64,000 nucleotides of DNA from Nostocoides sp. HKS02 (GTDB taxonomy: Bacteria > Actinomycetota > Actinomycetes > Actinomycetales > Dermatophilaceae): positions 2,356,001-2,420,000 of the forward strand of contig NZ_CP046121.1 in NCBI RefSeq assembly GCF_009707485.1, given 5' to 3'. Shown in pieces: positions 21,091 through 31,345 of the stretch. Below the pieces are notes generated by a model, which was not told the origin of the DNA, searched no databases, and saw only the letters and a program-made list of their open reading frames with translations. Positions within the stretch are counted from its first letter, which is position 1; every line of letters starts with the position of its first letter. The position numbers and the translations under genes were made by a program.

Positions 21091-21672
21091 TCAGACTGGC
21101 GTGGCCACGCCAGTGAGCTGGGTCAGCGCGAACTCGGTGATCCGGACAAGCGCCTGCTTGGCCGACTCCCGGTCGCGCGCGTCGACGGTGATGACGGGGA
21201 TGTGCGAGGGGATGGCGAGGGCCTCACGGATCTCCTCGGCACCGAACTGCTGGGCGTCGTCGAACTGGTTGAGGGCGACGATGAAGGGCAGGCCCTTGGC
21301 CTCGAAGTAGTCGACGGCCGCGAACGAGTCGTCCAGACGCCGGGTGTCGACCAGGACCACGGCACCGATGGCCCCGGTGACCAGGTCGTCCCACATGAAC
21401 CAGAAGCGCCGCTGGCCCGGTGTGCCGAACAGGTAGAGCACGAGGTTCTCGGCCAGCGTGATGCGCCCGAAGTCCATGGCCACCGTGGTCGTCTGCTTCT
21501 GCTGGACCTTGGAGATGTCGTCCTGGCCTTCGGACTCCTGGGTGACCAGGGCCTCGGTCCGGAGCGGGTCGATCTCGGAGACGGCACCAACGAAGGTGGT
21601 CTTGCCGACGCCGAAGCCGCCAGCGACGACGATCTTTGTCGAGGCGCTGCGGTTAGAGGGCGCGTAGTCCAC
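21091..21672 (-). CDS. cvnD: Conservon small GTPase-like ATP/GTP-binding protein CvnD
   Basis: 193 residues. A Ras/MglA-like G domain: P-loop GGFGVGKTTFVG near residues 18-29, the effector-like TTTVAMDFGRITL, FGTPGQRRF in place of DxxG, and the specificity motif NQFD near residue 135. In conservons this GTPase acts with the roadblock protein and the CvnA kinase at the membrane as a signalling module. The GTG at 21672 has AAAGGA seven bases upstream and lies 20 bases inside cvnC; an upstream in-frame ATG at 21696 is less well placed. It is the last gene of cvnABCD. Confidence 0.92.
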   Translation of the reverse strand: MDYAPSNRSASTKIVVAGGFGVGKTTFVGAVSEIDPLRTEALVTQESEGQDDISKVQQKQTTTVAMDFGRITLAENLVLYLFGTPGQRRFWFMWDDLVTGAIGAVVLVDTRRLDDSFAAVDYFEAKGLPFIVALNQFDDAQQFGAEEIREALAIPSHIPVITVDARDRESAKQALVRITEFALTQLTGVATPV

Positions 21673-22024
21673 TGAGTGTCCTTTCAATGAGTGCACGTCG
21701 TTCGTCAGTCGTCGTGTTTTCGGAGATGGTGGCGCGGGTCTTCAGATGGCCGGCCGAGACGAGGTCACCGATGAGGACCCTGGCGACTCCGAGGGGGATG
21801 TGAAGCTTTGCGGAGATCTCGGCCACCGAGGGCGAGGTGGCACAGAGCTCGACGATCCGACCCTTCAGGTCTCCCTCTGGCCAGGTGGCGTGACGACCGG
21901 ACGGCAGCACCTCGAGTGTGGCCTCGATGGGCAGGTCGACCACAGACTCAGTGCGTCCGGACGTCAGCGCATAGGGTCGGACCAGGCGTGGCCCGACCGA
22001 CTCCTCGCGTACGTCTGGCGCCAT
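21653..22024 (-). CDS. cvnC: DUF742 protein CvnC
   Basis: 123 residues, typical for DUF742. A central winged-helix-like segment (LKGRIVELCATSPSVAEISAKLHIPLGVARVLIGDL) follows an N-terminal RLVRPYALTSGRT motif seen throughout the family. It is a scaffold or DNA-binding-like partner of the conservon with no known enzymatic role. The ATG at 22024 begins three bases after the cvnB stop, and its end overlaps cvnD by 20 bases, so the genes are translationally coupled. Confidence 0.92.
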   Translation of the reverse strand: MAPDVREESVGPRLVRPYALTSGRTESVVDLPIEATLEVLPSGRHATWPEGDLKGRIVELCATSPSVAEISAKLHIPLGVARVLIGDLVSAGHLKTRATISENTTTDERRALIERTLSGLRAL

Positions 22025-22027
22025 CGA

Positions 22028-22447
22028 CTACCCCGACATCGGGGTTCGCGCAGCCGCGTCGATCATCTGACCCACGCGGTCGACGAGCACGGCCATCTCG
22101 TACCCGACCTGGCCGATGTCCGAGTCGGTGCTGGTCAGCGCGGCAAGGTGCGAGCCGTCGCCGACACTCATGAGCAGCAGGTAGCCGAGCTCCATCTCGA
22201 TGACGGACTGGAGCACCGTCCCGCCCTGGAAGAGGCGTGCGGCACCCGAAGCCAGGCTCGCCATGCCCGAGGCGACGGCAGCCATCTGCTCGGCGCGATC
22301 GGGCGGCAGCAGCTCGCTGGACGCCATGGGCAGCCCATCGGCCGAAACCAGGATGGCGTGCGAGACACCCGGCGTCTCGTTCGTGAACCTGGCCACGAGC
22401 CAGTCGTACTCGCCCCTGGGCTGGGCCATGGCGTCACTGGTGTACAT
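22028..22447 (-). CDS. cvnB: Roadblock/LC7-domain protein CvnB
   Basis: 139 residues with the roadblock/LC7 fold: [28 protein letters not shown], then [19 protein letters not shown] and [15 protein letters not shown]. Such proteins regulate the partner GTPase (CvnD). The ATG at 22447 follows GAGAGGAAG at good spacing and overlaps the end of cvnA by 14 bases, which favours it over an in-frame start at 22501 that would lie deeper inside cvnA. Confidence 0.92.
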
Positions 22448-25400
22448 CGGCTTCCTCTCGGTGTGATCCGTCTTGAGTTTCGGTGCGGGCTGCACTGACA
22501 CCCTGTTGGTGTCGGTTCAGGCTGCGGCGAATCGCCTCGGGGTCCCTGCGGTTCGCCGCAGTACTGGCGGCGGCCTGGGCCTCAGGGTGCTCGATCGCGC
22601 CGGGGACGAGGTGGTTGCCGGGGCGCCGCTTGGGCAGGCCGGCGGGGGACTCTTCCAGCGGTTGTGCCTCCTCGGTGCGGGCGGCCGCAGACCATGCCTG
22701 GTCGGCCTCGGTCGGCGACCACTGCGTCGCCTCGACCTCCGGACCCGGGTCGTCGGTGAGCCAGCGCGACATCATGGCCCGGAAGATGGGGGTGTCGTTG
22801 AGCACTCCTGACGGCTCGGCCTCTGGCTCGGGCTCAGGTGCCGTCTCAGGCTCGGTGGCCGCCTCGAGATCAGGCTCGGTGGCCGCCTCGGGCTCAGGCT
22901 CGGTGGCCGCCTCGGGCTCGGTCTCGGTGGCCGCCTCGGGCTCGGTGATCGGCTCCGGCGCCAGCTCGAATGCGGGCTCGGCCGTGAGCTCGGTGGTGGG
23001 CTCGGTGGTGGGCTCGGTGGTGCGCTCGCTGTCGACATCGGGCACCACCTCGGCCTGCTGCGGCTCGACCTCTGCGCTGTCACGGGCCTTGCGCGCCCCG
23101 AAGAAGGACGTGGTGTGGGCACGACCAGCCAGGCGCGGCGGGGCCTGAGCCTGGGTGGCCTCGGTGGGCACTCCAGACTGCCCGGGAACCCGGGTGGGCA
23201 GACCCACCACCGCGGCCGAGCCCTCGACACCGGGCACCGGCTCCGCCAGAGCGACCGCGGGCGCAGGCTGCTGCGGCACGTCAGGCTTCGCCTCCGGCTG
23301 CAGGGCAGCGTCGACGTCTACCTCGGGCTCGGGCTGCGGCTGCTCCTCCACCGCAGCGGGCATGTCTGCTTCGACGGGCTCGTCGGCGATCTCCGCGACC
23401 CACTCGGCTGGAACGTGCAGCTCCTGCGCGTCGACCTCGGTGTCGCGATCCGGTGTCGGGGACTCGACGGCGGGCGCCGGGGCGGCTGCGAGCTCGCGCT
23501 CCTTGGCCGCCTCGATGAGCTTGGCACGGTGGTCGAGCCACGCCGACAGGTTGGACGGCATCTGGCGCGGCTCGCTGGCCTCGGCCTCGAGTCGGGCAGC
23601 CTCGGCAGCGGCCTTGCCACGGCCCGGCAACCAGCTCAGGCGCTTGCCCTTGGCGGCCGGGGCCTCGCTCCTTGCCGACGGCGACGCCTCGGCGGCGCCG
23701 TCCTCGGGGGCATCTTCGAACTCGCGGTACTCCGTGATCCGCGTCGCCGACGGCTTGCGGACCGGCAGACCGGATGCGGCACGGGCCACCGGCGGCCGGG
23801 ACTCGTCGGCTCCACCGTCTGTGGTGGTGTCCTCCGATGCGTCCGATGCGTCCACCGCCTCGGAGTCGGCCTGCGCAGCAACCCCGTTGAGGTGGGGCTC
23901 GGCCGGCGCGGCAACCCCGTTGAGGTGGGGCTCGGCCGGCGCGGCGACCCCGTTGAGGTGGGACTCTGCCGGTGCGGCCACGCCATTCACGTGCTCCCCC
24001 GGGGCGGCCACGCCATTCACGTGCGGCTCGTCGGACTCGGCAGCGGGTGCGGCACCGTCGATCACGGGCTTGGCGCTCGCGGCCGACCCGTTGACCGCAG
24101 CCGGCCCGTGGGCACCCGGGGTGCGGGTCGGGAGCACCTTCTTGGCGGCATCCGGTATCGGAGTCGAGCCGCTCGCACCACGCACCCGGGTGGGCAGACC
24201 GCTCTTGGTGGACCCGCCGACGGCCGAGGGGCTGGGGATCGTGGGGCCGACAGGAGGCTGGCTGGGTGACCCGGCCACCTGGGCGGCACGCGCGCGGTCT
24301 GGCCGGACCGTGGCGGTCTCGGCGAGCAGGCCGGTCGGGATGTGCACGGAGACGGTGATCCCCTGGATCTCCTCACCATTGCGGCGCAGGCGCACAGCGA
24401 TCCCGTGCCGCTTCGCGAGGCTGCCCACGACGAACAGCCCCATGCGGCGGGCCGTGTCGGCCGTGATGTCGCCGCCGTGCGCGAGCTGGTCGTTGATGGC
24501 CGCCAGGTCCTTGGGCGACATGCCCAGGCCCCGGTCGCTCACCTCCACGAGGAGGCCGCCGTCCGGGGTCCGCGCGCCGCGGATGGCGACGCGAGTGGTG
24601 GGCGGCGAGTAGGCGAGCGCGTTGTCGACGATCTCGGCGACGAGGTGGATGAGGTCGGACCCGACGGCGCCCAGGACGTGGTCGCTGGCGGTGTCACCGA
24701 TGTCGATGCGCTCGTAGTTCTCGACCTCGGAGACAGCCGCGCGGATCGCGTCGGCGACCGAGATCGAGCCGGAGACGCCGCGCCGGGTGGACGTGCCTGC
24801 CAGCACCAGCAACGAGTCGCTGTTGCGACGCATACGGGCGGCGAGGTGGTCCAGGCGGAAGAGGCTCTGCAACCGCTTGGGGTCTTCCTCGTCGCTCTCC
24901 AGTCGCTCGATGAGGCTGAGCTGCTGGTCGATCAGCGAGGTGCTGCGGCGCGACAGGGTCTCGAACATGTGCCCGACCTGCACCCGCAGGCGGGCCTGCT
25001 CACCGGCGAGGGTGAGGGCTTGGCTGTGGAGGTCGTCGACAGCCCGGGCGAGCTGGCCCATCTCTTCGCGCGTCGTGACCGGGATCGGCTCGAACGGGGG
25101 CACCTCCTCGCCGTCGCGGATCTTCGCGACGGCGTTGGGGGAGCCGGTTCTGCGCCACGTCGAGCGCGCCCTCGCGCAGGACCCGGATGGGCGTGAGAAG
25201 CGAGCGGAGCAGGGCGACGACGAGCAGGAGGGCGGCGATCAAGGCGGCCGCGACGAGGGCCGCGTTGACGATCGCGGCGGTGCGGAAGCTCGTGGCGCGG
25301 GCTCGCAGGTTGGTCTCGAGCGAGGTGAGCTGGGCATCCATCAGCGAGGAGTAGACGGCGTTGCTCGACCGGTAGACCCCGTCCAGGCCAGCGATGTCCT

Positions 25401-26154
25401 CCTTGCTCGGGGAGTTCTGCTGGAGGATGCCGCCACGCCGGCCGTTCTCGTTGAGCAGCTGGCGGACCTGGCTGGCCATGTCCGGCACTTCCGACTGCAG
25501 CCGCGTGAGGGCAGCAGTCTCGGCACCCACCTGGCCGATGGCCCGCAGGTTCGCGGCGGCGTCGTCGGTGTTCGCGAGGTTCAGCTGCTGGCCGGTCAGC
25601 GCCCGCTCCGCGGCGATGGTGTCCTGCAGGGCCACGACGAGCTTGGCCGATGCCGAGTCGTCGCTGAGACCCAGGTCAGAGACGGCCGTTGACATGAGGG
25701 TCGCGGTGTTCCCGGACTGGTTGATGACGACGTCCGAGAAGCCGGTCTGGGTCTTGGCGGCTCGCACGGCCTGGCCGAGGCTGAGGGCCGACTCGGCGCT
25801 GGCCTTGACGTTGGCGGGGACGTTGGCGGCCTTGACGGCGATGCGCAGGTCCGCGGCCGCGGACTCGTACTTGGTGATCGCGGCGATGACACCCCCGCCG
25901 CCCACGCTCTCCGCGGCAGCGAGGTGCTGGACGGCGAGGTTGTACTCGACGACGGGCCTGATGACCTGGACGGTGTCGGCGGCCCGGGACAGCTGCTGGG
26001 CCGAGGTGAAGTCGCTCAAGACGCGCAGCCCCCCGAACACGAACGCGAGGAGCATCGGCAGGACCAGGGCAGCCGCAAGTTTCCGACGCAACGGCCACTG
26101 CCCGAAGGACCAGCGTGGCGGGACGCTGCCAGCCGCCGACTGCAGTCTGGACAC
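22434..26154 (-). CDS. cvnA: Conservon sensor kinase CvnA with nitrate/nitrite-sensing-like ectodomain, frameshifted in the HAMP region
   Basis: About 1,239 residues after correction. Order: short N-terminus, TM1 ([19 protein letters not shown]), helical extracytoplasmic NIT-like domain, TM2 ([19 protein letters not shown]), HAMP, a DHp-like stretch with [12 protein letters not shown], and HATPase ([22 protein letters not shown]). A ~650-residue low-complexity tail carries five LPxR motifs and tandem [10 protein letters not shown] repeats. Two frames meet inside HAMP; removing one base from the G5 run at 25137-25141 (giving [15 protein letters not shown]) restores a single frame, and the total then divides by three. 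The GTG at 26154 follows AGGAAGG. It heads cvnABCD. Confidence 0.9.
22800..23035. repeat. Glu/Thr/Pro low-complexity repeat in cvnA
   Basis: Degenerate repeats of a unit reading EPEAATE or EPTTE on the minus strand, within the cvnA tail. It forms an acidic, probably disordered linker. Confidence 0.7.
23876..24035. repeat. 33-bp tandem repeats in cvnA
   Basis: Five consecutive copies of an 11-residue unit ([11 protein letters not shown] or [11 protein letters not shown]) are encoded on the minus strand. The middle three are nearly identical at DNA level, which suggests recent slippage expansion. Confidence 0.75.
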
Positions 26155-26341
26155 GAAGCCACCTTCCTCATCACGAAAACCCGGGTGAACGGCAACATAT
26201 GCGGCCCCATACGTACGAGGGATAGCCATCAGAGGCCAGTTGGCACGTTTGGCCTCCGCAAATCTGACCGAACGGACTAGCTGCTCCCGGAGCGTCGGCG
26301 AGACAACGGCCACCAGAGTCGTATGCCGGCTGCAGCGCGCC
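26155..26341. other. Intergenic region upstream of cvnA
   Basis: 187 bases with AT-richer DNA around 26165-26275, where the cvnA promoter should lie. No confident hexamers were assigned. Confidence 0.3.
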
Positions 26342-26692: not shown

Positions 26693-27082
26693 ACGCGCCG
26701 ACGTGCGAGACGAGCACTCGCCCTCGTGGGGGTCATCGCGGCTGTCTCCGCCGTCGCGACCCTGGCATACCGGCACGCCTACGGGACGTGGTGGCAGGAG
26801 CCGGAGCGCATCTCCTTCTGCGGACGCACCTACTTGGCTGGGCATTCCGACTTGACGCTCACGGACGTGCAGCGGTTCGAGCGCACGACGTCGCTGGCCG
26901 GAGACAAGCCGTACCCGCTGGTGTCGATCGGCAAGACCCCTCCCCTGGTGGGCCAGGCGATGCTGGCCGCCCTCACGCCCGAGTCGCGCCAACGACAGCT
27001 CGGCGTGCCCTGCACCATGGGCCTCTACCTGCAGACCGGCGCGGACTCGTACACCGCCTACGGCCTCAGCGGCGGCCCGTGA
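26690..27082 (+). CDS. Membrane-anchored hypothetical protein
   Basis: 130 residues. Arg-rich N-terminus (RRRARRALALVGVIAAVSAVATLAY) followed by one transmembrane or signal-anchor segment, then a small extracytoplasmic domain with two cysteines (FCGRTY and VPCTMG) that could pair. I do not recognise the family. It converges on the small secreted-protein gene at 27127 with a 44-base gap. Confidence 0.6.
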   Translation: MTRRRARRALALVGVIAAVSAVATLAYRHAYGTWWQEPERISFCGRTYLAGHSDLTLTDVQRFERTTSLAGDKPYPLVSIGKTPPLVGQAMLAALTPESRQRQLGVPCTMGLYLQTGADSYTAYGLSGGP

Positions 27083-27126
27083 CTCGTGCGTCACCGCGAC
27101 CAACTCGGCCACGCCGACTGAGCGAG

Positions 27127-27585
27127 TCAGCAGGTGGTGGTCTGGGTGTAGGCCGGGCCGGTCCACGTCGCCACGTGCGCGACGATGGTCAGGGTGTACA
27201 GACCCTTGTTGGGGAAGCCGGCCACCGACAGCGTCACCTGCTGCGGCGTCGGCACGGTCTGGGTGGCTGAGCCATTCGGCGTGGTCAGCGTCAGCGCATA
27301 GCTGGTAGCCCGCGGCACGGCCGTGAAGGATGCGACGTTTGCCGACCCGAACTTGACGCTGCCCGTGGGACAGGTGAACGCGGCGCTCACCGTGCCCGGG
27401 GCCGCCAGCCCCAGAGTCGACGCGCTGAGGGAGCCCGTGGCCACGCTCGCGAATGACGCCCACGCTGCTGGCGCGGAGGCCAGCCCGACAGCGCCCACGG
27501 CCGCAAGCACGGCCGCAATCGACGCACGGGGGCGGCCGCGCCGACGGGCGGCCGGCATACCAACGACGAGGGCGGTGGGAATCAT
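27127..27585 (-). CDS. Small secreted protein, probable third SipW-type substrate
   Basis: 152 residues. A basic N-terminus, a hydrophobic segment (IAAVLAAVGAVGLASAPAAWA) and then SFASVATGSLSASTLGL, which resembles the cleavage region and mature N-terminus of the TasA-like proteins encoded just upstream (GSFTSTTSASQSV...GLGAPG). The C-terminal half (ATSYALTLTTPNGSAT...TLTIVAHVATWTGPAY) looks like a fibronectin-III-type beta sandwich, with cysteines near its ends. The ATG at 27585 follows AGGAG. It lies 97 bases downstream of tasA copy 1 and beyond a strong hairpin. The link to SipW processing is inferred from sequence similarity and position. Confidence 0.65.
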   Translation of the reverse strand: MIPTALVVGMPAARRRGRPRASIAAVLAAVGAVGLASAPAAWASFASVATGSLSASTLGLAAPGTVSAAFTCPTGSVKFGSANVASFTAVPRATSYALTLTTPNGSATQTVPTPQQVTLSVAGFPNKGLYTLTIVAHVATWTGPAYTQTTTC

Positions 27586-27624
27586 GTTCCGCTCCTGTCG
27601 TGGATAGGTCTGAGCGTTACCGCA

Positions 27625-27660
27625 CAGGTCCGGGCCCGGGGAGTCACGGGCCCGGACCTG
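27625..27660 (-). terminator. Hairpin between tasA-like copy 1 and the downstream secreted-protein gene
   Basis: Arms CAGGTCCGGGCCCG (27625-27638) and its exact complement (27647-27660) around an 8-base loop: 14 perfect base pairs. It could end or attenuate transcription after the abundant substrate gene. Confidence 0.7.
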
Positions 27661-27674
27661 CGGTCTGGGTGGTC

Positions 27675-28445
27675 CGACCGGCCTAGTGGGCGGTGGCGGT
27701 GCGCTGGGTGCCGGTGAACGCGAAGGTGATGGTGCTGGCCAGGTTCTGGAAGGTGTTGTCCGCGGCCGCGGGCAGGGTCAGCGTGGCCCGCAGGTTGTCG
27801 CTGGCCCCGGCGGTCAGGCTGGACAGCCCGGCCAGGGCGGTGTTGGCGCCGATGACGGGCTGGCTGGCCAGCACCGCGGTGGTCGTGCCGGTGCAGGTGT
27901 AGGTGTATGCCGGGGCGGTGCCGGCCTCGGTCCACGGGACCGAGCAGGAGTCCAGGGCCAGGTGCAGCCCGTTGGTGGGGTCGCTGTCCAGCTTGCTGCT
28001 CGGTGAGGCGGTGGTGGTCAGCGTGACCGCGCTCAGGGCCTGGGTGCCGGTGTTGCTCAGCGTCACCGCGCGCTGGACGGTGTCGCCGGGGACCAGGCCC
28101 GCAGCGGCCACGGCGAGCCGGTTCGCCGGGCCGGGCGCGCCCAGGCCGATGACGACGGTGCCGCTGGCGACCGACTGGCTGGCCGAGGTGGTCGAGGTGA
28201 ACGAGCCGAAGGTGCCCAGGCCCGCGACGCCGGCGGCGCCCGCCAGCAGGGCAACCGAGGCCAGGACCTTGCCGGAGGACTTCGTGGTGGCGTTGCGCAT
28301 GGGGGTTTCCTTTGCTGGGGGCCGCAGCCGTGGCGGCTCATGGTCGGGTGTCGGCTTTCGCCGTTGCCACGACTGTGCGACCCCGACCTCAAGGAACCGG
28401 CCCACCAGCCCGCAGGATTCGCACAAGAAACCCGCAAGAACCCCC
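27675..28445. repeat. 771-bp direct repeat, copy A
   Basis: This segment recurs at 30343-31113 in the same orientation with a constant offset of 2,668 bp. I count nine substitutions and no indels, about 98.8% identity. All nine lie in the coding region; the ~145 bases upstream of the gene are identical. It contains a complete tasA-like gene with its leader. Confidence 0.97.
27683..28300 (-). CDS. SipW-dependent-type TasA/CalY-like secreted protein, copy 1
   Basis: 205 residues. The N-terminal signal (KVLASVALLAGAAGVAGLGTFGSFTSTTSAS) is the kind recognised by SipW-type signal peptidases; the mature part is a Thr/Ser/Ala-rich beta-rich domain with conserved GDTVQRAVTLSNTGTQALSAVTL, as in camelysin/TasA fibre or matrix proteins. 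Two cysteines (DSCSVPW and YTCTG) could pair. It differs from copy 2 at three residues only. AAAGGA precedes the ATG at 28300. A cognate peptidase lies 1.3 kb away. Formation of fibres is inferred from the family. Confidence 0.85.
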   Translation of the reverse strand: MRNATTKSSGKVLASVALLAGAAGVAGLGTFGSFTSTTSASQSVASGTVVIGLGAPGPANRLAVAAAGLVPGDTVQRAVTLSNTGTQALSAVTLTTTASPSSKLDSDPTNGLHLALDSCSVPWTEAGTAPAYTYTCTGTTTAVLASQPVIGANTALAGLSSLTAGASDNLRATLTLPAAADNTFQNLASTITFAFTGTQRTATAH

Positions 28446-28524
28446 CGACCGGCGACCCGCGAATCGGGCCGCCGTGCGTCGCGTCGCCCCGGACCTACCG
28501 CTCTGCTCTGCGATGATGGCGCCC
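28301..28524. other. Divergent intergenic region between tasA-like copy 1 and the response regulator
   Basis: 224 bases. The part up to 28445 belongs to the direct repeat and must hold the tasA promoter and leader. It includes a short direct repeat on the minus strand (GGTTCTTGC then GGTTTCTTG). The response-regulator promoter must lie in the rest. Confidence 0.4.
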
Positions 28525-29286
28525 ATGAGCGGGACTCCCACGGTTGGCGTCGTCGTCGAGGACGACGACGACATCCGCGAGCTCATCGCGACCACGCTGA
28601 CCATGAAGGGCCTCACCGTTCACACCGCGGCCACGGGGCGCGAGGGCCTGGAGCTGATCGGCGCGACCAACCCTGACCTGGTGACCCTCGACATCGGACT
28701 ACCCGACCTCGACGGCATCGAGGTGTGCCGCCAGGTGCGCGCCGTCTCGGACGCCTACATCGTGCTCATCAGCGGACGCACCGACGAGGTCGACCGGCTC
28801 ATGGGGCTGGAAACCGGGGCCGACGACTACCTCACCAAGCCGTTCAGTCCACGCGAGCTCCAGGCTCGGGTCACGGCGATGTTCCGCCGGCCGCGCCGCC
28901 CCACCGCGTGGACGACGCGAGCGGCATACCCCGACGCCCAGACGGCTGACGGCGCAGCTGGCGACGGCGTGGTCGTCCTGGGCAAGCTGGCGGTCGACCT
29001 CGAGAGCCGCAGCGTGACCGTGGACGAGACGGACGTCGAGCTCACCCGCACCGAGTTCGAGCTGCTTGCCGTCATGGTGGGCGCCCCCCGCCGGGTCTGG
29101 GCTCGGGACGTCCTCCTGCGCCGGGTCTGGGGCGAGGACTGGGGCACCGACGAGCACCTGGTCGAGGTCCACGTGGGAAACCTGCGCCGCAAGCTCGGCG
29201 GCGCCACGGGGTCGGCCAGCCTGATTCGCACCGTCCGCGGTGTGGGTTACCGCATGGAGGAGCCCTCGGCCGTCTGGGCGGACTAG
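28525..29286 (+). CDS. OmpR-family DNA-binding response regulator
   Basis: 253 residues. Receiver domain with acidic pocket VEDDDD (about 11-16), phosphoacceptor Asp56 in VTLDIGLP and Lys105 in TKPF. A linker (PTAWTTRAAYPDA) precedes a winged-helix transcriptional domain (LTRTEFELLAVMV, RRVWGEDWGTDEHLVEVHVGNLRRKL, IRTVRGVGYRM). No histidine kinase is adjacent. Three in-frame ATGs lie at 28513, 28516 and 28525; the last gives the normal N-terminus. It is divergent from tasA-like copy 1 and convergent with the HPt gene, so it probably controls this locus. That role is inferred. Confidence 0.9.
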   Translation: MSGTPTVGVVVEDDDDIRELIATTLTMKGLTVHTAATGREGLELIGATNPDLVTLDIGLPDLDGIEVCRQVRAVSDAYIVLISGRTDEVDRLMGLETGADDYLTKPFSPRELQARVTAMFRRPRRPTAWTTRAAYPDAQTADGAAGDGVVVLGKLAVDLESRSVTVDETDVELTRTEFELLAVMVGAPRRVWARDVLLRRVWGEDWGTDEHLVEVHVGNLRRKLGGATGSASLIRTVRGVGYRMEEPSAVWAD

Positions 29287-29642
29287 CTGGGGCGGGGCGG
29301 GACCACGGTCGCCAGTGCCTTGGCGGTGTCGAAGCCCCGTCGGCGCACGCACTGCAGAGCGCCCCGCGCCGCGACGCACCCCCCGACGAGGAGGCATTCC
29401 TCCACCTGGGCCGCCAGGTCCCGCATGGCGACGGCGCCCACCATGGCCGAGCTGACCTTCAGGCTGAGCACCGCGTCCATGGCAGTGGACTCGTCGCCTG
29501 CGACGCAGGCACCGACGAGTCGGCCGATCCGCCCGTCGAGCAGCTCGAGGTAGAGCGCCACGATGCGTCGTGCGGCCTCAGGACTGGCCAGCTCGCCGGC
29601 CAGCTGCTCGAAGATCCGTAGGTCGATCACCGGGTCACCCAC
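29283..29642 (-). CDS. HPt-domain-like protein lacking the phosphoacceptor histidine
   Basis: 119 residues, almost all helical, with the HPt pattern IDLRIFEQLAGEL, RRIVALYLELLDGRIGRLVGAC and LSLKVSSAMVGAVAMRDLAAQVEE. In active HPt proteins the conserved segment reads AHxLKGSS; here the histidine position is Leu59 (AVLSLKVSS), so phosphotransfer at that site should not be possible. I chose the GTG at 29642, which overlaps the signal peptidase stop by eight bases and has GAGG upstream; in-frame starts at 29657 and 29669 are alternatives. It converges on the response regulator with a three-base overlap. A binding or decoy role is possible. Confidence 0.7.
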   Translation of the reverse strand: MGDPVIDLRIFEQLAGELASPEAARRIVALYLELLDGRIGRLVGACVAGDESTAMDAVLSLKVSSAMVGAVAMRDLAAQVEECLLVGGCVAARGALQCVRRRGFDTAKALATVVPPRPS

Positions 29643-30252
29643 CAGAAGCCTCGTCACCAGAGTCCTCATCGCTCGACCAGATGCGCCACAGACCCAGCAG
29701 CACGAGCCCCCCAAGGGCGGTCCACATCGCGCCGAACTGGATGACCGGCGACCGAAGGACGCGGATCGCCGAGCCCAGATGGGGGATGACGACCTTGGCC
29801 TGCCACACCGTGGGGCCGTTGATGGTCGCCACCCACGGGTCGGCCCCGTTGTTGGCGTCGCCCTTGGTGACGATCGCCAGGCGCCCGGAGGAATCGTGGG
29901 TCACCCTGATGACCCGGTGGGTCTCGACCCGGTGGTCCTCGACCGGAATCTGGTAGGTGACGATGTCTCCGACGGCCACGTGCGCGGCGGGCTTCGGCAT
30001 GGTCACGACCACGTCTCCGGGGTTGATCCCAGGCGCCATGCTCCCGGTCAGCATCGTCACGGTCCGGTACCCGAGCACATGCGGCCCCACCCCCAGCAGG
30101 ACGAACGCTGCAGCGGCAAGCACCAGGACGCTGGTCGACAACATCCGGCCGAGGCCGTGGAGCGACCGGCGGAGCGGGAACGCGCCGCGTTGCCGGTCCG
30201 TAGCCCGCATGCGGTGGTCCACGACTGTGGCGGCGTCGATCGGAATGACCAC
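29635..30252 (-). CDS. sipW: SipW-like (ER-type) signal peptidase I
   Basis: 205 residues. TM segment (LSTSVLVLAAAAFVLLGVG), catalytic Ser in LTGSMAPGINPGDVVV, then THRVIRV with the His that replaces Lys in ER-type peptidases, and KGDANNGADPW with the conserved Asp box. A second hydrophobic segment near the C-terminus precedes an acidic tail. SipW-type enzymes process TasA/CalY-like proteins, two of which flank this gene. The GTG at 30252 has AAGGGA upstream; the ATG at 30285 is an alternative start. It lies 98 bases downstream of tasA-like copy 2. Confidence 0.88.
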   Translation of the reverse strand: MVIPIDAATVVDHRMRATDRQRGAFPLRRSLHGLGRMLSTSVLVLAAAAFVLLGVGPHVLGYRTVTMLTGSMAPGINPGDVVVTMPKPAAHVAVGDIVTYQIPVEDHRVETHRVIRVTHDSSGRLAIVTKGDANNGADPWVATINGPTVWQAKVVIPHLGSAIRVLRSPVIQFGAMWTALGGLVLLGLWRIWSSDEDSGDEASGG

Positions 30253-30306
30253 GACCCGGTCCCTTCTGTGATGGCTGTTGGACATGCTCGGGAGCCCAGG
30301 TGCGCC

Positions 30307-30331
30307 GGCCGCCTCCCCCAGCGAGGCGGCC
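30307..30331 (-). terminator. Hairpin between tasA-like copy 2 and sipW
   Basis: Perfect 9-bp arms GGCCGCCTC and GAGGCGGCC around a 7-base loop. It is placed to reduce read-through from the substrate gene into the peptidase gene. Confidence 0.55.
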
Positions 30332-30342
30332 GACGTCCTGGT

Positions 30343-31113
30343 CGACCGGCCTAGTGGGCGGTGGCGGTGCGCTGGGTGCCGGTGAACGCGAAGGTGATGG
30401 TGCTGGCCAGGTTCTGGAAGGTGTTGTCCGCGGCCGCGGGCAGGGACAGCGTGGCCCGCAGGTTGTCGCTGGCCCCGGCGGTCAGGCTGGACAGCCCGGC
30501 CAGGGCGGTGTTGGCGCCGATGACCGGCTGGCTGGCCAGCACCGCGGTGGTCGTACCGGTGCAGGTGTAGGTGTATGCCGGGGCGGTGCCGGCCTCGGTC
30601 CACGGGACCGAGCAGGAGTCCAGGGCCAGGTGCAGCCCGTTGGCGGGGTCGGTGTCCAGCTTGCTGCTCGGCGACGCGGTGGTGGTCAGCGTGACCGCGC
30701 TCAGGGCCTGGGTGCCGGTGTTGCTCAGCGTCACCGCGCGCTGGACGGTGTCGCCGGGGACCAGGCCGGCAGCGGCCACGGCGAGCCGGTTGGCCGGGCC
30801 GGGCGCGCCCAGGCCGATGACGACGGTGCCGCTGGCGACCGACTGGCTGGCCGAGGTGGTCGAGGTGAACGAGCCGAAGGTGCCCAGGCCCGCGACGCCG
30901 GCGGCGCCCGCCAGCAGGGCAACCGAGGCCAGGACCTTGCCGGAGGACTTCGTGGTGGCGTTGCGCATGGGGGTTTCCTTTGCTGGGGGCCGCAGCCGTG
31001 GCGGCTCATGGTCGGGTGTCGGCTTTCGCCGTTGCCACGACTGTGCGACCCCGACCTCAAGGAACCGGCCCACCAGCCCGCAGGATTCGCACAAGAAACC
31101 CGCAAGAACCCCC
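30343..31113. repeat. 771-bp direct repeat, copy B
   Basis: Second copy of the segment at 27675-28445, same orientation, nine substitutions. It ends 68 bases before the tRNA-Thr gene. Recombination between copies would delete or amplify the 2.7-kb segment with the regulator, HPt and sipW genes. Confidence 0.97.
30351..30968 (-). CDS. SipW-dependent-type TasA/CalY-like secreted protein, copy 2
   Basis: 205 residues, differing from copy 1 at three positions (Ser to Thr and Thr to Ala in the SSKLD-DP-NGL segment, Thr to Ser in the NLRAT-LPAAAD segment). It has the same SipW-type signal region, Ser/Thr-rich mature domain and two cysteines. AAAGGA precedes the ATG at 30968, and the upstream ~145 bases equal those of copy 1, so both should be expressed alike. 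It heads a putative operon with sipW and the HPt-like gene. Near identity suggests recent duplication or ongoing gene conversion. Confidence 0.85.
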   Translation of the reverse strand: MRNATTKSSGKVLASVALLAGAAGVAGLGTFGSFTSTTSASQSVASGTVVIGLGAPGPANRLAVAAAGLVPGDTVQRAVTLSNTGTQALSAVTLTTTASPSSKLDTDPANGLHLALDSCSVPWTEAGTAPAYTYTCTGTTTAVLASQPVIGANTALAGLSSLTAGASDNLRATLSLPAAADNTFQNLASTITFAFTGTQRTATAH

Positions 31114-31148
31114 GAACCCGCCGGTGCGGCTGTGCCGCCGGGAAACGC

Positions 31149-31178
31149 AAACGCCCCCGACCGAAGTCGAGGGCGTTT
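31149..31178. terminator. Terminator after tRNA-Thr
   Basis: Hairpin with arms AAACGCCC (31149-31156) and GGGCGTTT (31171-31178) extended inward by a second four-base pairing around a CGAA loop. It lies just downstream of the tRNA on the minus strand. Confidence 0.75.
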
Positions 31179-31180
31179 CG

Positions 31181-31257
31181 TGGAGCCGCCTATCGGAATC
31201 GAACCGATGACCTATTCATTACGAGTGAATCGCTCTGGCCGACTGAGCTAAGGCGGC
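31181..31257 (-). tRNA. tRNA-Thr (anticodon CGU)
   Basis: 77 nt including an encoded CCA. Cloverleaf on the minus strand: acceptor GCCGCCT/AGGCGGC, D-arm GCTC...GAGC, anticodon stem ATTCA/TGAAT around loop CTCGTAA, five-base variable region AGGTC, T-arm ATCGG-TTCGATT-CCGAT, discriminator U. The anticodon CGU reads ACG threonine codons, frequent in this GC-rich genome. It is followed by a hairpin terminator and lies beside the TasA/SipW locus. Confidence 0.97.
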
Positions 31258-31345
31258 GCGTACCCCAAAGGCACGACGCATGAGTATACGGATGGGGCCC
31301 GCAAACGCCGAACCGGGCCACGTCAGCGCGAACGCGGCATACCCG

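Follow-up and report, generated by a model that had tools for sequence, protein, structure and literature searches.

The region from 27127 to 31113 of a 64,000-nucleotide stretch of Nostocoides sp. HKS02 (contig NZ_CP046121.1, positions 2,356,001 to 2,420,000; hereafter the window, whose numbering is used throughout) probably holds an actinobacterial cassette for TasA/SipW-type fibres governed by its own OmpR-type response regulator (RR), in which a tasA gene has been copied, along with its promoter-type element, to the position occupied in related loci by the element of a small secreted protein gene. The cassette comprises two tasA genes, a sipW gene for a SipW-type signal peptidase, a gene (hpt) for an HPt-like protein, the RR gene and the small gene.

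The duplicated tasA unit and its promoter-type element

The two tasA genes lie in direct repeats of 771 bp (copy 1, 30343-31113; copy 2, 27675-28445; offset 2668) that differ at nine positions (98.8% identity) and enclose the genes for the RR, the HPt-like protein and SipW. Repeat comparison reported this pair as the sole repeat family of at least 30 bp between 25 and 33 kb, and the genome, assembled as one contig of 3.48 Mb, contains these two tasA matches only. Both genes are on the reverse strand and encode 205 residues: tasA copy 1 (30351-30968; PF12389, E 6e-9) opens the series tasA-sipW-hpt, the ancestral position judging from relatives, and tasA copy 2 (27683-28300) lies between the RR gene and the small gene. 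All nine mismatches are inside the tasA reading frame, six being synonymous and three causing the substitutions S106T, T109A and T175S, with 3/205 differing residues (98.5% identity) and a third-position divergence of 2.9%; the 145 bp upstream of the ATG are identical, and both reading frames are intact. The near-identical repeats that a preliminary description had noted around the regulator and peptidase genes are thus confirmed.

The repeat starts 7 bases ahead of the first box of a three-box element, found by pattern scan and intact in both copies, which consists of CTTG, 11 bp, CTTG, a spacer of 22, 34 or 44-45 bp, CTTG, 16 bp and a hexamer such as CAGAGT. The element of tasA copy 1 (31040-31106, reverse strand) reads CTTG, 11, CTTG, 34, CTTG, 16, CACAGT and that of copy 2 (28372-28438, reverse strand) is identical to it. 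In the whole genome the long-spacing pattern has two matches, one before each tasA gene, and none in the reversed control. Across the loci compared, the strict long-spacing pattern is present upstream of 42/59 tasA genes (shuffled mean 0.0) and a relaxed one upstream of 45/59, while the small gene bears its own element in 18 of 19 cases with a spacing of 22 bp (17) or 23 bp (1). Altogether, 70 matches were found on both strands of 38 loci (579 kb), all ahead of cassette genes; 67 were assigned by script and three by eye, before sipW (L114, L116) and a small-type gene (L122), and the 70 are not independent cases because the loci were picked for tasA and are related. The spacing of the third box took only the values 22-23, 33-34 and 44-45 bp though 18-49 was scanned, which corresponds to about two, three or four helical turns depending on the gene.

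Of the 19 loci counted, the window is the single one in which the small gene's own element is absent; the 18 others have it, and in the window its place is occupied by tasA copy 2 with its element. The short-spacing (22-bp type) pattern has no match in the whole genome, so no relocated version of that element was detected. From the comparison of loci, tasA copy 2 is the derived copy, because none of the 18 other loci with RR and small genes holds a tasA there (0/19 counting L080, whose weak RR and small-gene matches without an element kept it out of the small-gene count) and the small gene's element is replaced. Since L009 and L128 belong to the same contig, the 59 tasA genes are 58 distinct ones and the 18 other loci 17.

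Promoters of the PhoB/OmpR type have 11-bp tandem half-sites, with a box close to the -10 site. The putative promoter element of the cassette is alike in its 11-bp direct repeats and its box near a -10-like hexamer, and differs in having its third box at 22, 34 or 44-45 bp according to the gene. A simple scan of 27000-31300 for sigma-70 promoters and T-run terminators found none.

Distribution of the cassette and origin of the tasA pair

Gene order was derived by tblastn over the 38 loci; it recurs as one to five tasA genes, sipW and hpt, met by a convergent RR gene, and the small gene, several loci being tasA alone. Matches to tasA are present in 9/186 genomes of the family, 30/394 sampled genomes of the class and 36/215 Nocardioides genomes, 17 of these 36 having at least two. 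A SipW match at E 1e-50 or better, a line drawn after the result was seen, occurs in 35/36 tasA-positive Nocardioides genomes (the exception is G643) versus 0/19 tasA-negative ones, the latter being a subset of the 179 negatives, with G590 removed, and not a random draw. Upstream of sipW, L118 (G766), L119 (G702), L120 (G654) and L121 (G709) carry three to five tasA genes in tandem; in L131 (G696) and L132 (G643) tasA is directly followed by hpt, and no sipW match separates the two. Solitary tasA copies bearing the element are also found in G650, G671 and G610, and in G653 two genes on different contigs (L122:4801-5397 and L123:6554-7150) share 99.4% identity across 989 bp, of which about 300 bp lie upstream.

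Four Nocardioides genomes (G578, G648, G671 and G610) share the order tasA-sipW-tasA-hpt-tasA, followed by the convergent RR gene and the small gene. The two tasA genes flanking sipW group by genome (support 0.98 in G671, 0.99 in G648 and 0.85 in G610; the G578 pair is identical), while the third copy groups by position. The pair identities, some upstream DNA included, are 99.6, 95.9, 94.2 and 92.2%. A tree by position was rejected against a tree by genome (log-likelihood difference 600; approximately unbiased test, p=1.6e-34) in a comparison of two hand-written trees that excluded the solitary copies of G671 and G610. The comparison supports concerted evolution of these pairs; the alternative, that one site received duplicates several times, is less simple. 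For the two copies of the window, gene conversion is plausible or even likely.

The preliminary description had suggested gene conversion or very recent duplication on account of the identity of the upstream DNA and the confinement of all changes to the coding sequence. The conversion part is supported by the tree and the test for the related loci and remains plausible for the window; the confinement is real but not significant under a uniform spread (P=0.135) and has little weight alone. The 321 unchanged bases at the upstream end of the repeat (P=0.007, a post hoc choice) are suggestive, and the 347-base span of the differences gives P=0.009, also chosen after the data were seen. A general rule by which the upstream DNA of paralogue pairs would be more conserved than the coding sequence was rejected: differences upstream versus coding are 0/140 versus 9/615 in the window, 5/140 versus 8/627 in G648 and 13/139 versus 47/630 in G610.

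It is possible, if on balance doubtful, that tasA was simply duplicated not long ago, conversion playing no part and the additional copy having no particular significance and heading to loss or drift. The 98.8% identity over 771 bp agrees with this, as does the single tasA copy of G003, which is the only other match among 11 genomes of the same genus, and nine differences alone cannot prove conversion. However, six of the nine differences are synonymous with frames and elements intact, multiple tasA copies recur in 17/36 tasA-positive Nocardioides genomes and pairs are kept alike in four of them. That the second copy is an artefact of assembly is extremely unlikely: repeats are known to cause misassembly, but the two copies differ at nine sites, have different flanks and stand in a one-contig assembly, and G578 has an analogous pair. 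It is improbable that the copies are two functionally distinct subunits whose assembly is tuned by the three substitutions, after the manner of TasA and CalY of Bacillus cereus, where two such proteins have separate roles according to the accessible parts of the sources (PMC4292775, PMC13082335); 3/205 residues differ here versus 61% identity in B. cereus as given in the available portion of PMC4292775, and each residue state is also seen among close metagenome relatives (P0003-P0007, 87-94% identical).

The recombination switch proposed in the preliminary description, in which the direct repeats would delete or amplify the RR-peptidase segment and turn fibres off or up, has found no support and is very improbable. 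The segment is indeed flanked by long near-identical direct repeats, related tasA pairs exchange sequence, and the tasA-hpt arrangement of L131 and L132 is the expected deletion product, G643 (L132) being alone among the tasA genomes in lacking a strong SipW match. Nevertheless, the deletion would be irreversible, and the switch is disfavoured because it would permanently remove the peptidase and the regulator of the cassette; sipW is present in all four genomes with flanking copies, and a strong SipW match is kept in 35/36 tasA genomes. Moreover, the tasA genes of L131 and L132 fall outside the clade of flanking pairs with no sign of two former copies, and a further tasA-sipW locus is present in G696 (L131). 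Variants in copy number did not come to light, sequencing reads not being among the data. Copying of tasA with its element into the small gene's place, the copies being possibly held alike by conversion, is the reading retained below.

Cassette proteins and their putative working

The assignment to a TasA/SipW-type locus, already made in the preliminary description, is supported by family matches, predicted fold and SipW co-occurrence. The TasA copies score 36.7 and 36.4 bits against PF12389 (TasA/camelysin; cut-off 22.5) and their predicted fold is a jelly roll with TasA as the nearest one; with the SipW-dependent signal peptide model TIGR04088 they reach 17.1 bits versus a cut-off of 19, 19/30 TasA members matching it at E 0.1 or better, and they remain far from the Bacillus TasA equivalog NF046066 (15 versus 450 bits needed). 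SipW (216 residues; 29635-30285, reverse strand) exceeds the cut-off of TIGR02228, the archaeal-type signal peptidase I (65.5 versus 51.85 bits), is below that of the Bacillus SipW equivalog NF046067 (54.1 versus 190) and has the motifs TGSM, THRV and TKGD, which we take to be catalytic.

The HPt-like protein (128 residues; 29283-29669, reverse strand) is encoded by a gene overlapping the end of sipW by 35 nt. It matches PF01627 with E 4.5e-5 and 24.0 bits, slightly under the cut-off of 24.6, and all 22 cassette members reach E 0.1 or better with this model; profile matches to HPt phosphotransfer domains of known structure were also obtained (7c1i, E 7e-9; 3myf, E 5e-6). Despite this likeness, the column of the phospho-accepting histidine is leucine in 22/22 aligned cassette members, and among 45 database homologues it is leucine in 42, valine in one and histidine in two, the last being the weakest matches. 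The RR gene (28513-29286, forward strand, alternative start ATG at 28525) is convergent with hpt and encodes receiver and winged-helix domains (PF00072, PF00486) in which the Asp and Lys motifs are as expected (LDIGLP, KPF). The small secreted protein (152 residues; 27127-27585, reverse strand), whose gene the preliminary description spanned without discussing it, belongs to the cassette on the basis of relatives and has an FN3-like predicted fold; Pfam fn3 matches 1/16 members (E 0.0035) and not that of the window, which has no NCBIfam match either. Its homology with TasA is unsupported (hhalign 2%).

In the proposed working, the RR would bind the CTTG boxes 11 bp apart and the third box, close to a weak -10 site, and would activate tasA, together with the downstream sipW and hpt, and the small gene. 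A hairpin after tasA might damp sipW and hpt so as to leave TasA in excess; TasA would be exported, cut by SipW and polymerised through donor-strand exchange, and capping, anchoring or initiation of the fibres may fall to the small FN3-like protein. The His-less HPt-like protein could bind the RR instead of passing phosphate. The second tasA would raise the dose of TasA under the same control and set a tasA promoter ahead of the small gene, and gene conversion would keep the copies alike. A more specific proposal is offered tentatively, at somewhat short of even chances: tasA and its helically phased promoter would form a portable unit, repeatedly copied by actinobacterial fibre cassettes and kept identical by conversion, the RR would be paired with a conserved His-less partner of HPt fold that binds it and carries no phosphate, and in this genome the small gene would have been captured by promoter replacement.

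To our knowledge, TasA/SipW fibres are known mainly from Bacillus; if the reading is true, their range would come to include an actinobacterial cassette that is regulated and has defined parts. It offers a promoter-type element with gene-dependent spacing, a conserved His-less HPt-like protein and natural examples of concerted evolution of a surface-fibre gene across a peptidase gene. Among the matches listed, the literature search gave no publication that deals with a TasA cassette in actinobacteria, with the promoter of such a cassette or with its HPt-like protein, subscription papers and preprints being outside the coverage.

The cassette resembles the tapA-sipW-tasA operon of B. subtilis, as described in the accessible parts of PMC9674648 and PMC10151520, in its linked SipW and a further small secreted protein; by the same partial accounts, it differs from that operon, which uses SinR, in having its own OmpR-type RR and His-less HPt-like gene, several tasA copies and the three-box element. 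The N-terminal and C-terminal blocks of B. subtilis TasA match cassette TasA, whereas the FN3-like small protein has no detectable homology with TasA, the comparison having been made with TasA and not with TapA. The sipW-tasA-bc1280-calY region of B. cereus likewise has two TasA-type genes and one SipW, calY depends on its own promoter, and no RR or HPt-like gene is mentioned for it in the available portions of the sources (PMC4292775, PMC13082335). The B. cereus pair, 61% identical and with distinct roles in the accessible text of PMC4292775, contrasts with the window pair, 98.5% identical and preceded by the same element.

Hairpins and neighbouring DNA

Two hairpins on the reverse strand follow the tasA genes: a perfect one of 15 bp between copy 2 and the small gene (27624-27661; z -4.0, or -2.0 with another shuffle) and one with a stem of 13 between copy 1 and sipW (30300-30336; z -1.6). 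Stems of at least 11 bp are present after 42/59 tasA genes versus 5/295 shuffles and 0/59 within-gene windows; by folding energy only 11/59 stand out.

A tRNA-Thr(CGT) gene (31181-31257, reverse strand, identified by tRNA match) adjoins the cassette with its 3' end facing it and is outside the proposed mechanism; it alone reached threshold in the Rfam scan of the five sources given. The five genus mates compared match it on the hydrolase side, two of them with about 1 kb extra by the tRNA, and the cassette side varies; the G003 cassette sits elsewhere in its genome. A second copy of the tRNA end, considered for a genomic island, was not found within the window.

Further away, 21091-26313 contains an operon that we take to be conservon-like, with a sensor kinase-like gene, small proteins and a GTPase. 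The kinase-like gene is split over two frames near 25000-25103, where L139 (G007) is open for 800 residues, and may be a pseudogene or reflect a sequencing error.
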